A stretch of 18,652 bases of DNA from Desulfuromonadaceae bacterium (lineage in GTDB: Bacteria > Desulfobacterota > Desulfuromonadia > Desulfuromonadales > Geopsychrobacteraceae), in contig WTCI01000111.1 in assembly GCA_013138655.1 (NCBI GenBank), forward strand, positions 1 through 18,652. Reading direction: 5' to 3'. Each line of letters starts with the position of its first letter. Position 1 is the first letter of the stretch. The position numbers and the translations under genes were made by a program. A model generated the notes under the pieces. The model made no database searches. It saw only the letters and a list, made by a program, of their open reading frames with translations, and was not told the origin of the DNA. This document shows positions 8,775 through 18,104 of this stretch, piece by piece.

Positions 8775-8792
8775 GATGGTCTCGCAAAAAAG
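8775..8792 (+). repeat. Solo terminal end of the 150-bp MITE-like element (locus E)
   Basis: GATGGTCTCGCAAAAAAG matches the left terminus of the full copy at 14363 in 17 of 18 bases. The rest of the element is absent. It begins two bases after the -10 box of the TPR operon promoter. Confidence 0.55.
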
Positions 8793-8831
8793 AATACGCT
8801 GCCGTCATCGATAATCAAAGGACATATTTTC

Positions 8832-11637: not shown

Positions 11638-11660
11638 GCTGACCTCCGTGCATCAATATT

Positions 11661-11696
11661 GATGCTTTCGCAAAAAAAAACCTTGAGATGGCTAAG
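11661..11696 (-). repeat. Truncated right end of the MITE-like element (locus C)
   Basis: GATGCTTTCGC, an A-run, then TTGAGATGGCTAAG aligns with the right terminus of the full element (GATGTACTCGC...ATGAGATGGCTAAG at 16270-16302). The A-run is longer here, and the rest of the element is absent. A palindrome, CATCAATATTGATG (11651-11664), overlaps its outer end. Confidence 0.6.
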
Positions 11697-11799
11697 AAGA
11701 ACTATAGCGAAACAAACTGAGATTTCCAGTTCTGGTGTTTAGATGGATATTCCCGCTGACATGACTTTTAATCGACAGCTTGTTAAGCGGGGAAACGGT

Positions 11800-14076: not shown

Positions 14077-14343
14077 TCAGGGAGTTGACAGCAGTCTACC
14101 TAGCTTTGCCAGTTTTATTTCTTTTGCGGCGGCTACCTGTTCGGGGCCGAACATCCAGCTGAGTTGACCAAGCATCAAGCTGACATCCGCCAGTTCCGCA
14201 ATGACCGCCTGTTTGTCTATTTTACCGCGCCGGTAATGTTTCAGCGCGGCGATCAATTCGGCACATTCTTCGACCGCCTGGTCGTACTGGGCCTCTTCCC
14301 CCCATTTGTCGAGGGTTGCTTGATAGATCTGTTCCAGTGGCAT
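14077..14343 (-). CDS. MazG-like nucleotide pyrophosphohydrolase family protein
   Basis: This 88-residue protein looks like a short, all-alpha NTP pyrophosphohydrolase of the MazG type. The EEAQYDQAVEECAELIAALKHYRRG segment carries the acidic E-x2-E-x-E pattern that binds metal, and ELADVSLMLGQLSWMFG holds the second acidic pair (E-x2-D). It would hydrolyse a nucleotide triphosphate, but the small size and lack of C-terminal extension leave the substrate open. The ATG at 14343 has an AGGATC site upstream. The frame stays open 28 codons further upstream through the MITE-like element to an ATG at 14427; that extension is derived from the repeat, and the shorter start matches the family better. 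Confidence 0.85.
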   Translation of the reverse strand: MPLEQIYQATLDKWGEEAQYDQAVEECAELIAALKHYRRGKIDKQAVIAELADVSLMLGQLSWMFGPEQVAAAKEIKLAKLGRLLSTP

Positions 14344-14362
14344 AATAGATCCTGTGATAGTT

Positions 14363-14513
14363 GATGGTGTCGCAAAAAAGTCCGCCCTCCGGCATTGCAG
14401 CAGTTTTTTAGGATCTCGATATACCATATGTATGCCTTCGCCCCTGAAAAACCACTACGCCTTGTAGGTCGAAATTTTTACTTAGCCATCTCATGCCTTT
14501 TTGTGAGTGCATC
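14363..14513 (+). mobile_element. MITE-like palindromic element, full copy (locus A)
   Basis: This 151-bp element begins GATGGTGTCGCAAAAAAGTC and ends with the complement of GATGCACTCACAAAAAGGC, giving about 19-bp imperfect terminal inverted repeats. A second internal inverted pair surrounds the middle (GTTTTTTAGG and CCTGAAAAAC). The copy at 16270-16419 is its homologue in inverse orientation, differing at about ten positions and one gap. ATAGTT flanks it on both sides (14357-14362 and 14514-14519), consistent with a target-site duplication. No coding capacity is seen. It lies 20 bases before the MazG-like start codon. Confidence 0.8.
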
Positions 14514-14538
14514 ATAGTTGATTGCATCATAGTTGATT
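14509..14538 (+). repeat. 15-bp tandem duplication at the edge of the MITE-like element
   Basis: GCATCATAGTTGATT occurs twice in a row (14509-14523, 14524-14538). It covers the last bases of the element and the target-site copy, so an end fragment has been duplicated after insertion. Confidence 0.85.
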
Positions 14539-14545
14539 ACATAGA

Positions 14546-14587
14546 TTAATGAAAAAGGCTGCCCGATTCGGCAGCCTTTTTCATTAA
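14546..14587. terminator. Strong bidirectional terminator of the GntR/FCD regulator gene
   Basis: A perfect 18-bp stem runs from TTAATGAAAAAGGCTGCC (14546-14563) through loop CGATTC to GGCAGCCTTTTTCATTAA (14570-14587). The T-rich arm after GGCAGCC acts as the U-tract in either direction. It ends 16 bases beyond the stop codon of the minus-strand GntR/FCD gene, which it should terminate. Confidence 0.88.
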
Positions 14588-14603
14588 GTTGTCAGTTTGA
14601 TCG

Positions 14604-15341
14604 TCACGCAGTGTCCGGATGGTCCTTCTGGAGAAAGAGTGTCAGTTTTTCTTCCACCAGGGTCAGATGCTCCATCATCCGGTCGCGGGCACGCTCCGGG
14701 TCGTGATCGGCAATCGCTTCCATGATTTCACGGTGATGATTGAGCAGTAGCTCGATGTAGCCTTCCTTGCTGTAAAACTCGCTCAATGCTTCCATGATGG
14801 TGGTTTGAAAGAGCTTTTGGACAATATCGAGGATATGGACCTGCAAGGTATTGTGGGTGGCCGCAGTGATGGTCAGGTGGAATCGAAAGTCAACTTCAGC
14901 GTCCCAGTTCCCACTGGCGGCTAGCTCAACCATGGTGTTGTAAAGTTCCCGTAAACGCTCAATCTCGGAATCGTCGGCGCGCTTTGCCGCCAGATAGGCA
15001 GACCAGGTTTCCAGGCCGATACGGACTTCTGTCAAAGCATGCAATATACGTGGGTCACGCTGCTCAACCATACTGGCCAGTGGGTCGGCCATGGTGGCAT
15101 CCGCCAGTGAACGGACGTAAGTGCCGCCGCCCTGACGTGATTCGAGAAAGCCCATTGCTTCGAGCACCATGATGGCTTCGCGCACAGAGGGGCGGCTGAC
15201 GCCGAGAAATGATGCTAATTCCCGTTCCGAAGGAATCTTCTGGCCAGGACTCAGCTCACCGCGTGAGATCAGTTCTTTGATCTGGTTGACGATCTCTTCG
15301 GAGAGTTTTTTCGGACGGATCGGTTTAAAGACTGTGGCCAT
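14604..15341 (-). CDS. GntR-family transcriptional regulator with FCD domain (FadR subfamily)
   Basis: This 245-residue protein has the standard size of the FadR/PdhR/LldR group. Its N-terminal winged helix-turn-helix (about 10-75) has GQKIPSERELASFLGVSRPSVREAIMVLEAMG, a close match to the family signature, followed by the FCD ligand-binding domain (about 100-228) with the helical acid/histidine metal-site pattern (DFRFHLTITAATHN). These regulators usually respond to pyruvate, lactate, other organic acids or acyl-CoA. GGAGGA precedes the ATG, and a near-perfect palindrome lies just upstream (15360-15377), so it probably represses its own gene. A strong terminator closes the gene. Ligand and other targets are not evident. 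Confidence 0.93.
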   Translation of the reverse strand: MATVFKPIRPKKLSEEIVNQIKELISRGELSPGQKIPSERELASFLGVSRPSVREAIMVLEAMGFLESRQGGGTYVRSLADATMADPLASMVEQRDPRILHALTEVRIGLETWSAYLAAKRADDSEIERLRELYNTMVELAASGNWDAEVDFRFHLTITAATHNTLQVHILDIVQKLFQTTIMEALSEFYSKEGYIELLLNHHREIMEAIADHDPERARDRMMEHLTLVEEKLTLFLQKDHPDTA

Positions 15342-15359
15342 AAGTTCCTCCAGATTGCT

Positions 15360-15377
15360 TGGTAAGACCTTTTACCA
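15360..15377. promoter_or_regulatory. Probable FCD-regulator operator (TGGTAA-N6-TTACCA)
   Basis: TGGTAA (15360-15365) and TTACCA (15372-15377) form a perfect 6-bp palindrome separated by six bases. The left half reads TTGGTAAGACC, close to the known PdhR/LldR-type TTGGTnnGACC half-site. It is just upstream of the GGAGGA site of the GntR/FCD gene, where binding would block transcription. Confidence 0.7.
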
Positions 15378-15476
15378 CGGCTGTTGGGCAATAACAAGAC
15401 AAGAGAATCTGACGATAGCTGCAGTCTGCTTCCTTTTATTGAACCATGACCTGCTATTGGTGAGATAAGTCAGCGG

Positions 15477-16250
15477 TCAGACCAGTTGTGTCGGCGGTTC
15501 TTTAGCTTTTTGCGTCCGCTGGAAGCGCTTAAACCACGTCTTGAAATCTTTTTCTTCCCGCTCCATTTCAAAAGCGTTAATCAACCCCCGTGCTAATGAG
15601 ACGGCGACTGCCCGGTTTCGTAAATTGAAAGAGGCGCCAACTTTTTCACAGTGGAACTGTTCCTGGTCGAGGCCGAGCTTGTTGTAGAGGGAGTTGAGCC
15701 GACTTTGCACTCCGCGTCGGGAAAGGTAGCGTCGTTGGGCAATCAGGTTGTCAGTCAGGCCCAGCGAAATGTCGAGCAATGCCTCGTATTCAATGTCAGA
15801 CAGGGCCGTCAAGCTGTGTCCTGCCCGTCCCTGCACTTTGCGCACCTCTGGAGAAATCCAGCACTGTTCCTCCAGAAGGACGGTCCGAATGGCCGAGGTA
15901 ATCCGCTCTCGGGGGCTCGATTTAAGGATGTAACCATAGACCGTCTCCGGTGGAACAATTTTCGTCAGGGCGCGGACATACATCTCATCCTTGAACTGGC
16001 TCCAGAAAACAATGCGGGCTTCCGGCTGTGCTTGCCAGAGGCTCTGGGCCAAATCGATCCCGTTCATTTCCGGCATCTGTATGTCACTGATGATTAACGG
16101 ATTAGTGCGGGTCAAAGCAATATCCAAGGCATCTTTGCCGTTGGGTGCCCGGGTGATCCGGACCTCCTCATCCCAGTCTGAAAGCAGTTGTTCGAGGAAT
16201 TCATAATCTTTCGGATTATCTTCAGCAATCAGAATTTCAATCGGTTCCAT
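15477..16250 (-). CDS. Response regulator, NarL-like with receiver and LuxR-type HTH
   Basis: This 257-residue protein starts with a receiver domain: acidic pocket E10-D11, phospho-acceptor D56 in SDIQMPEMNG, S84 in VFWSQF and conserved lysine K110 in YILKSS. After a linker, residues about 152-193 (ALLDISLGLTDNLIAQRRYL, then SRRGVQSRLNSLYNKLGL) follow the LuxR/NarL helix-turn-helix pattern, though the usual K-T-V recognition stretch is altered to R-G-V-Q-S-R. A further 60-residue C-terminal tail rich in basic residues (FKTWFKRFQRTQKAK) is longer than in typical NarL proteins. It is encoded just after its probable kinase, with the MITE-like element between. GGAGC precedes the ATG. The genes it controls are not visible here. 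Confidence 0.9.
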   Translation of the reverse strand: MEPIEILIAEDNPKDYEFLEQLLSDWDEEVRITRAPNGKDALDIALTRTNPLIISDIQMPEMNGIDLAQSLWQAQPEARIVFWSQFKDEMYVRALTKIVPPETVYGYILKSSPRERITSAIRTVLLEEQCWISPEVRKVQGRAGHSLTALSDIEYEALLDISLGLTDNLIAQRRYLSRRGVQSRLNSLYNKLGLDQEQFHCEKVGASFNLRNRAVAVSLARGLINAFEMEREEKDFKTWFKRFQRTQKAKEPPTQLV

Positions 16251-16269
16251 TGGTTTTGCTCCAAAAAAT

Positions 16270-16419
16270 GATGTACTCGCAAAAAGTCATGAGATGGCTA
16301 AGCAAAAATTTCGACCTACAAGGCGTAGTGGTTTTTCAGGGGCGAAGGCATACATACGGTATGTCGAGATCCTGAAAAACTGCTGCAACGCCGGAGAGCG
16401 GACTTTTTGCGACGCCATC
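16270..16419 (-). mobile_element. MITE-like palindromic element, full copy (locus B)
   Basis: This 150-bp element is homologous to the copy at 14363 when read on the opposite strand. The termini are GATGTACTCGCAAAAAGTC and, on the other strand, GATGGCGTCGCAAAAAGTC. Internal GTTTTTCAGG and CCTGAAAAAC also pair. AAAAAAT lies on both sides (16263-16269 and 16420-16426), consistent with a 7-bp target-site duplication. No coding capacity is seen. It sits between the histidine kinase and response-regulator genes, ending 19 bases before the latter's start. Confidence 0.82.
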
Positions 16420-16450
16420 AAAAAATAGCTTAGGAGGGTGTCGGACTCTC

Positions 16451-17821
16451 CTAGGAGACGAGCAGGGTCAGTTCAAAGCGGGTGCCGGAAGAAAAGCGCG
16501 AATTTTTCCAGGTGACGTCGGCACCGATACTTCTGGCCCGTTCCTGAATGTTGCTCAATCCCCGACCCCGGCCGGGGTCGGACAAGTCAGCGATTCCATT
16601 GCCATTATCTTCGACAGAGAGGACCAGTGTTTTGTCCCGCACTTCCAGATTAACTTCGTAGCGACTGGCGGCAGCATGCTTGAGGACATTCTGGATTGCT
16701 TCCAGGGCAATCCGGTAGAGGGCCAGTTGCCGAACCCGATTTAGATTCAATGCGCCGATTTTCGGATCGAGATAGAGGTGGTACTCAGGAAGGCTCTCAA
16801 TTGAACAATAGCGATCCAAGTGAGCTTCGATTGCTGCACCCAAACCGAGAATGTCGAGAGTTTGCGGGTGCAGGTTGTTCATGATGTCACGCAGGTTGGT
16901 GATTGCGCGATCCAGGTCCTGTTCCAGTGCGGTAATACTCTGGAGCGTTTCCTGATCCACTGATTTTGCCGCCAGGCTTTGTATGCCCCGCAAAATTGCC
17001 GAGAGGTCGGTCAGTGACTGGTCATGCAGATCCATAGCGATTCTGCGTCGCTCGTCCTCTGCACCTTCGAGCAGTTTTTCTGTGCCGACAACCTGAATCA
17101 GGCGGCCGGTCATGCGCTTGATCGAAACACCCAAAGCATCCAATTCGTCACGGATGTTATCGGGTGCTGGTGGCAGGACCAGTTCACCACCGGCAATTCG
17201 GCCGGCACTGTCCGACAATAACTGGATACGATTGAGGATCCGCTTGCTGAAGTAGCTGGCCAGCACGAGTCCGAGAAAAATTGCCAGGCCGATGACCGAA
17301 ATTGATACCAGCACCGATCGCTCAACCAGTTGATTGATATCTTGACTGTGCCGGTGGCGCAGCTTATTCCGGTGAATCTGGGTCGTGTTCGACAGGTTCG
17401 ATAGCTGGGCTCGAAGGTGGGCATAAAGCTCGGCAGTCTGTTCCGGTTCCGGGCCGTTGATCGGATTGAGTTTGCCGGCGAGGGTATGGAGCTGACTGAG
17501 TTCGTTGTTCTCTTTCAGTGGCCCGAATGGTTCAATCCGCTCGATGGCATCAATCAGGCGATCATAGAGATCGGCGACCAGGGCCATTTCTTCCGGTGAG
17601 GCAATCCCCGTGTGCTGGAAGGTGCGAATGATGACGTGCAGGCGCCTGGCAGCCATATCCGCTTCAGCCAGGGCGATAAAGGTTGTGCCGAGCGCCTTGG
17701 CTTCCTGGCGGATCAGGGTCAGGTTCCGGTAGGTATACTGCATGAAAGCAAGCAATAGAACCAGCAATAACAGGACGGTCGCGGGGGCCAGCAGTATCTG
17801 TTGTTTGACGGTAATTCGCAT
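16451..17821 (-). CDS. Membrane sensor histidine kinase (NarX-like, HisKA_3)
   Basis: This is a 456-residue protein. TM1 spans about residues 8-28 and TM2 about 169-190, with a periplasmic part of about 140 residues containing helical, four-helix-bundle-like sequence. A HAMP-like linker (190-245) leads to the HisKA_3 dimerisation domain, with the phospho-histidine H266 in ERRRIAMDLHDQ. The ATPase domain follows: N-box HAAASRYEV region with IALEAIQNVLKH, then VEDNGNGI and GRGRGLSNIQERA. It should phosphorylate the response regulator encoded next. The signal is unknown; no PAS or known sensor motif is visible. The ATG is at 17819-17821; a sigma54-like site lies upstream. Confidence 0.93.
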   Translation of the reverse strand: MRITVKQQILLAPATVLLLLVLLLAFMQYTYRNLTLIRQEAKALGTTFIALAEADMAARRLHVIIRTFQHTGIASPEEMALVADLYDRLIDAIERIEPFGPLKENNELSQLHTLAGKLNPINGPEPEQTAELYAHLRAQLSNLSNTTQIHRNKLRHRHSQDINQLVERSVLVSISVIGLAIFLGLVLASYFSKRILNRIQLLSDSAGRIAGGELVLPPAPDNIRDELDALGVSIKRMTGRLIQVVGTEKLLEGAEDERRRIAMDLHDQSLTDLSAILRGIQSLAAKSVDQETLQSITALEQDLDRAITNLRDIMNNLHPQTLDILGLGAAIEAHLDRYCSIESLPEYHLYLDPKIGALNLNRVRQLALYRIALEAIQNVLKHAAASRYEVNLEVRDKTLVLSVEDNGNGIADLSDPGRGRGLSNIQERARSIGADVTWKNSRFSSGTRFELTLLVS

Positions 17822-18055: not shown

Positions 18056-18092
18056 AAATTTTTGCTTAGCCATGACTTTTTGCGCGTGCATC
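18056..18092 (+). repeat. Truncated right end of the MITE-like element (locus D)
   Basis: AAATTTTTGCTTAGCCAT, then GACTTTTTGCGCGTGCATC matches the right end of the full element, with CTCAT deleted from the middle. It lies 12 bases past the stop of the partial histidine kinase gene, before the terminator hairpin. Confidence 0.6.
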
Positions 18093-18104
18093 AAATTCGG
18101 GCGA

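Follow-up and report, generated by a model that had tools for sequence, protein, structure and literature searches.

Elements of the REP/REPIN type, with their RAYT transposases, are short, palindromic and extragenic and have no gene of their own. The repeat family described here was found in the window, a stretch of 18,652 nucleotides analysed at its full length (contig WTCI01000111.1 of the Desulfuromonadaceae bacterium assembly GCA_013138655.1), and differs from REP/REPIN elements in having target duplications and the ends of a DNA transposon; it is read here as a miniature inverted-repeat transposable element (MITE). In the part of its description that was covered, MITEAba12 (PMC6382973) has the same size, terminal repeats, short fixed-length duplications, lack of genes and AT-rich targets; however, it has a co-resident insertion sequence (IS) with its ends, whereas none was found for the present family, and that part of the text does not mention a replication-linked orientation. 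Chunjie, a MITE of Geobacter uraniireducens which is inserted in an operon, is similar in that its host is related and that one copy in the window (copy 2) also lies between two genes of the same direction, but its copies are 178-235 bp long compared with 150 bp here, a distinction drawn by description only from the portion consulted of PMC10969869 (on Chen 2008).

Intergenic, partly palindromic multicopy repeat families are also described in the sections seen of reports on Geobacter and Pelobacter genomes (PMC2700814, PMC3543383, PMC2996986), and identity with one of these is possible, the comparison being by description only. For Tn7 via TnsE, for IS200/IS605 and for several IS families the orientation of insertion follows replication, according to the relevant part of PMC5371812 (citing Gomez 2014); these elements carry their own transposase, whereas the present one is passive and no enzyme for it was found. 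The open-licence literature searched yielded no account of the present family, of MITE insertion at stop codons or of MITE orientation by replication.

We consider it highly probable that the element is a MITE, a non-coding 150-bp piece of DNA whose ends are recognised in trans by the transposase that moves it. Its ends, duplications, empty sites, copy number, spread and lack of coding signal were observed directly; thus the terminal inverted repeats, fixed-length duplication, short non-coding sequence, dispersed copies and empty sites by which MITEs are recognised are all present; no partner was seen in the four genomes searched for one. The original prediction, made from the letters of the window, had proposed two nearly identical copies of about 150 bp in opposite orientation, and this was confirmed both by an inverted-repeat scan and by alignment. 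The copies form the longest inverted repeat of the window (ungapped arms of 141 nt, 94% complementary; the next-longest has 37 nt at 73%) and align over 153 nt with 93% identity (93-94% overall). Both begin with GATGG(C/T)GTCGCAAAAA and end in the reverse complement of a GATGnnnTCGCAAAAAG-like end, their terminal repeats are of the GATGnnnTCGCAAAAAGTC type, and inspection of the letters bore out the predicted inverted-repeat ends and internal GTTTTTCAGG/CCTGAAAAAC pair.

The direct repeats ATAGTT and AAAAAAT assigned to the two window copies stood, but the proposed extension of the former to ATAGTTGAT did not: ATAGTT is present three times around copy 1 (at 14357, 14514 and 14529) with the nine nucleotides GATTGCATC between the last two, so ATAGTTGAT is not a longer duplication of this copy. 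Among 89 non-redundant elements with 600-bp flanks, entry into which required a duplication of at least 5 bp, the exact duplications were of 6 bp in 66, 7 bp in 20, 8 bp in two and 5 bp in one, that is, of a fixed length of 6 or 7 bp in 86. An earlier tally held 73 end pairs with exact 5-8-bp duplications (window copy 1 was counted twice, also as L001). The target consensus is YC-AWNNWT-GA, which is AT-rich and weakly palindromic (logo of 58 sites of 6 bp and 19 of 7 bp). The terminal pattern is not due to chance: with up to 2 mismatches it occurs 58 times in one 4.4-Mb genome of the order, as opposed to twice for the reversed control.

A REP/REPIN-like system in which a RAYT (Y1) transposase does the moving would fit the palindromic, mostly intergenic element with its many copies, and Y1_Tnp proteins were detected in 14 of the 15 genomes scanned. 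This explanation is nonetheless very improbable in view of the 6-7-bp duplications in 86 of 89 elements, and Y1 matches occur in MITE-free congeners (G003 11, G004 3, G001 2, G007 1, G006 none) as they do in MITE-rich ones (G000 5, G009 7, G005 3, G002 2). Target duplication is not known for Y1 enzymes of the IS200/REP kind.

Comparison with relatives revealed empty sites. In congener G005 the site of copy 2 is unoccupied, with TTTTGCTCC, one AAAAAAT and TGCTGAGG in succession, and copy 2 is also absent from G002. Copy 1 is absent at the orthologous place in both G002 and G005, where the flank has changed and no single ATAGTT remains. These sites bear on the idea that the repeat is not mobile but is a functional RNA that has been conserved, or a regulatory repeat, for example a terminator or riboswitch. 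On each strand the element is predicted to fold stably into a single imperfect hairpin (z -4.2 and -6.0), and in many copies it lies behind genes in the same direction, as such a repeat might; against this, the window has no Rfam match at the gathering threshold, positions 14100-16700 contain no terminator-like site, copies occur in both orientations and duplications are present. Because orthologous sites are empty, a functional RNA is refuted as the primary nature of the element and is the least probable of the explanations weighed here, although a role may have been acquired later. A terminator role in particular is unsupported, as no such site was seen in that interval.

The predicted dispersed family was borne out, with consistent ends, exact duplications at many independent sites and sites empty in congeners; searches of its own genome and of relatives with the element returned many copies with the same ends and target duplications. 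In 179,823 bp of the same genome (the window and 20 contigs, 18 of which were picked for containing a match) a profile of both copies detected 22 that are nearly full length, and a 154-bp query gave at least 20 scored copies there and 110 first-look candidates. The same query matched in 21 of 41 genomes, in 73 of 136 across the order (with up to 232 first-look candidates) and in 33 of 395 in a sample of the phylum, the genome itself being included in each count. At least 115 stretches from the species collection contain the exact 19-base left end, and of the 80 of these that were listed, 72 stand under Desulfobacterota or 'Deltaproteobacteria' names; in the two cyanobacterial matches no MITE follows the end. 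Identity among the copies within a genome is 0.93 in G000 (21 copies), 0.90 in G034 (19 copies, some identical), 0.77 in G122 and 0.80 in G079, and the spread is therefore recent in G000 and G034. In the 43-codon open frame, heterozygosity at codon positions 1, 2 and 3 is 0.144, 0.164 and 0.165 (102 distinct copies, one orientation); all three positions vary alike, which shows no coding signal and rules out a coding role for this internal frame.

Plasmid and phage records contained no match to the element. MITE matches were present in eight of 47 viral loci (L149, L416, L422, L424, L425, L431, L432 and L435). In L149 (IMGVR_UViG_3300033553_000705, 273-398) the upstream frame ends in a stop made at the left end (T-GA). 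Copies are also carried by L055, L095 and L097, from a metagenome-assembled genome labelled Chloroflexi C2.bin.19, two of them with exact duplications, which reflects either transfer or mis-binning.

The transposase would recognise the ends GATGnnnTCG(C/T)AAAAAGTC and make cuts staggered by 6 or 7 bp in YC-AWNNWT-GA targets, leading to duplication of the target, and by analogy with elements that leave short fixed-length duplications it may be of the DDE type. The ends appear to be sufficient, since one element (L036:1768-1899) combines them and a 6-bp duplication with a different repeat, CTTCGACAAGCTCGGCACGAGCG, as its interior, and two others (L134, 46 bp, and L140, 43 bp) have almost no interior; duplication-bearing pairs range from 43 to 311 bp in length with a mode of 150. 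Insertion may be coupled to the replication fork, and this would explain why the element reads left-to-right along the leading strand in most genomes examined. Insertions at stop codons would be tolerated because the element starts with GA, so that T-GA gives a stop again no matter which one was there before.

The orientation of the copies was compared with replication. In most genomes examined they tend to run left-to-right along the G-rich (leading) strand. For G122, a single contig sampled as 40 stretches around known ends, copies covering at least 80 model positions numbered 19 minus to 2 plus on one replichore and 25 plus to 3 minus on the other (44 of 49; Fisher p 2e-8), or 20:2 and 30:4 when all partial hits were included. 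The replichore borders (0.7 and 2.1 Mb) were set after the copies had been viewed, yet they agree with GC skew. Copies aligned with the skew of their flanks (measured on 3.5-20 kb, absolute skew above 0.03) in 17 of 21 cases in G000, 10 of 11 in G009, 6 of 8 in G034, 42 of 46 in G122 and 9 of 14 in G079. Pooled over twelve genomes, 103 of 126 were oriented with the replichore; among 128 copies 91 follow the sign of the local skew, with 50 versus 6 where absolute skew exceeds 0.06, figures that overlap with those of G000. The share of open reading frames (ORFs) of at least 150 aa found on the leading strand is 61-63% in G000, G009, G034 and G122, and 55% in G079. With G079 set aside, the leading strand is followed by 24 of 26 copies whose flanking genes are on different strands and by 36 of 38 with both flanking genes leading; the former class gave 10 of 14 in a hold-out set, which comprised 20 of 40 preset regions and shorter pieces of six more.

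Two groups of results weigh against a MITE that is moved in trans at the fork. The first concerns the enzyme. As had been predicted, the window contains no source transposase, and no partner was found beyond it; these ends were not seen as a pair at IS-sized spacing in G034, G122, G079 or G009, two of which are drafts and in all of which more-mismatched ends would escape (the end-pair lists, like the 4-8 kb spacings, were judged by eye). A search of 1.66 Mb for elements with A....T 6-bp duplications returned MITE against MITE at the top and otherwise few, weak hits, with no partner, and G122 and G034 contain no DDE_Tnp_1 match. The second group concerns orientation. The hold-out, fixed beforehand, gave 19 of 26 with the skew (p 0.03; 23 of 34 regardless of skew), below the predicted ~85%, and a second small set, chosen afterwards and with 3-kb flanks, gave 7 of 12. 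G079 shows no bias (11 of 19; 9 of 14 at strong skew) at about the same divergence as G122, nor does G076 (2 of 4), and one of the two copies in the window itself opposes the local skew. The direction of the genes also plays a part, since the bias is weak where both flanking genes lag (12 of 19 without G079; 4 of 5 in the hold-out).

That the bias arises after insertion, both orientations inserting and the more stably folding strand being lost faster on the lagging template, or antisense transcripts being harmful, is a realistic possibility to which we give somewhat less than even weight. Of 102 copies, 98 have the more stable fold on the antisense strand under RNA parameters and 99 under DNA parameters, and the favoured orientation would put the weaker strand on the lagging template; moreover, the bias is strongest in G122, where copies are old (mean identity 0.77), and gene direction has a separate effect. 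The young copies of G000 (0.93) are, however, already biased (17 of 21), G079 is as diverged as G122 (0.80) yet unbiased, and the difference in folding between the strands is modest (mean DNA folding energies of -27.3 and -32.1 kcal/mol).

Further loci were examined for the enzyme that a MITE moved in trans would need. End pairs revealed no autonomous partner in the fetched loci, none of the 47 viral loci has an IS-sized end pair with a duplication, and MITE-type ends were absent from the 10 ISNCY, 21 DDE_Tnp_1 and 10 Y1 loci that were returned. One of 30 rve loci examined, L314, has a MITE-type end; it consists of an IS30-like gene that adjoins a MITE end fragment. A gene in L098 whose stop lies 26 bp away from an end turned out to be ordinary, with a MITE derivative placed at that stop codon, and two IS-sized spacings (G122 at 1.94 Mb and G034 C13) have ordinary genes between unrelated ends. 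The transposase may have been lost from the genomes examined, may lie outside the assembled parts, may have ends that are too divergent or may be encoded by a gene that these ends do not bound.

Genes were called strictly, as non-overlapping ORFs of at least 100 aa in the reconstructed empty site. On this basis 16 of 89 elements have their left end within the upstream gene's stop codon, and none has its right end there. Changing the ORF cut-off had little effect (17 left and 1 right at 80 aa; 15 left and no right at 150 aa). The original stops of the 16 were 10 TGA, 4 TAA and 2 TAG, and all are TGA after insertion. The odds ratio is 11.4 relative to motif sites in the 60 bp that follow 829 control gene ends, of which 63 were at the stop and 946 beyond it; this control counts motif sites and not true targets. 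Lenient frames place 26 of 89 elements at a stop, including frames that are not genes, such as one opposite a gene at window copy 1; as a share of gene-end sites this is 26 of 54, against 14% expected from a target matrix built from the 63 insertions that do not lie in stop codons. The excess was not reproduced in the first hold-out (0 left and 1 right of 17), and the second set gave 2 left and 0 right of 12, so that both together have 2 left versus 1 right of 29 and all sets 18 left versus 1 right of 118.

A polarity of left over right at stop codons is likely; the excess is of uncertain size, and part of it is due to the target motif. Whether the T-GA motif together with purging from coding sequence accounts for all of it, with no targeting of gene ends, is close to an even question, tilting slightly towards no. 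The matrix alone does expect 14% of sites at the stop and the hold-outs gave only 0 of 17 and 2 of 12; on the other hand, 26 of 54 with lenient frames, 16 of 89 with an odds ratio of 11.4 under strict calling, and the 18 to 1 polarity among 118 weigh against the motif as the whole explanation, and a right end at the stop would equally restore TGA but is nearly absent. The transposase of the MITE might be a resident, non-mobile one, a DDE counterpart of the RAYT-REPIN arrangement, guided to forks and to the 3' ends of genes, such that polarity is fixed, the stop is often restored and the gene is unharmed; we regard this as unlikely.

The family, which is carried by many sulfur- and metal-reducing bacteria, extends across much of the phylum, was recently active in several genomes and has no recognisable partner, which raises the question of what moves it. 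Orientation by replichore would serve as a record, left in nature, of an enzyme that couples transposition to replication, and the insertions that rebuild stops show how the element can settle in compact genomes at low cost. It is also a source of insertion markers with which poorly cultured Desulfuromonadales may be compared.

Table 1. MITE copies, duplications and end pieces in the window. Names of genes are readings of their translations, made with no family search.
Feature	Position	Strand	Remarks
MITE copy 1	14363..14513	+	151 bp, full length, extra A in left end
Left target duplication of copy 1, ATAGTT	14357..14362		
Right target duplication of copy 1, ATAGTT	14514..14519		
GATTGCATC and third ATAGTT	14520..14534		Probably the two tips of a second tandem insertion, judging from the letters
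MITE copy 2	16270..16419	-	150 bp, full length; histidine-kinase-like and response-regulator-like genes either side
Target duplication of copy 2, AAAAAAT	16263..16269		
Target duplication of copy 2, AAAAAAT	16420..16426		
Left-type terminal repeat of copy 2, GATGGCGTCGCAAAAAGTC	16401..16419	-	
Right-type terminal repeat of copy 2, GATGTACTCGCAAAAAGTC	16270..16288	+	
Internal inverted repeat arm of copy 2, GTTTTTCAGG	16331..16340	+	Paired in predicted folds
Internal inverted repeat arm of copy 2, CCTGAAAAAC	16371..16380	+	Paired in predicted folds
Right-type end, GATGGTCTCGCAAAAAAGAATACG	8775..8809	-	Possibly a 35-bp derivative with imperfect duplication ATAAT; lower limit inferred
Right-end fragment	11660..11703	-	E 0.011
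Right-end fragment	18056..18093	+	E 4e-5

Copy 2 ends 19 bp upstream of the start codon of the response-regulator-like gene. The nine nucleotides of GATTGCATC beside copy 1 are probably what is left of a second tandem element from which nearly everything has been deleted. Fragments had also been predicted near 8775, 11661 and 18056, and all three exist (Table 1); of the five loci counted in 18.6 kb, only two are full copies and the other three are end pieces. These pieces may be derivatives and not random fragments, because other contigs of the same genome carry complete 38-39-bp deletion derivatives with their own duplications. A 37-39-bp form, made up of the right end and a short palindromic tip (GATGGCGACGCCATC or a variant) and likewise with its own duplications, is present at three sites in G000 and also in G122 and G079. 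Copies arranged head-to-tail in tandem are a feature of G122, and at one place (G122:C1:1258494-1258947, L171) three copies follow one another with 5-bp spacers between them. In L020:8337-8409 a left end and a right end are fused in an odd order (TTTTTACGACGCCATC then TCAAGGCTTTTTGCGAGTGCATC), an arrangement that suggests template switching on the palindrome.

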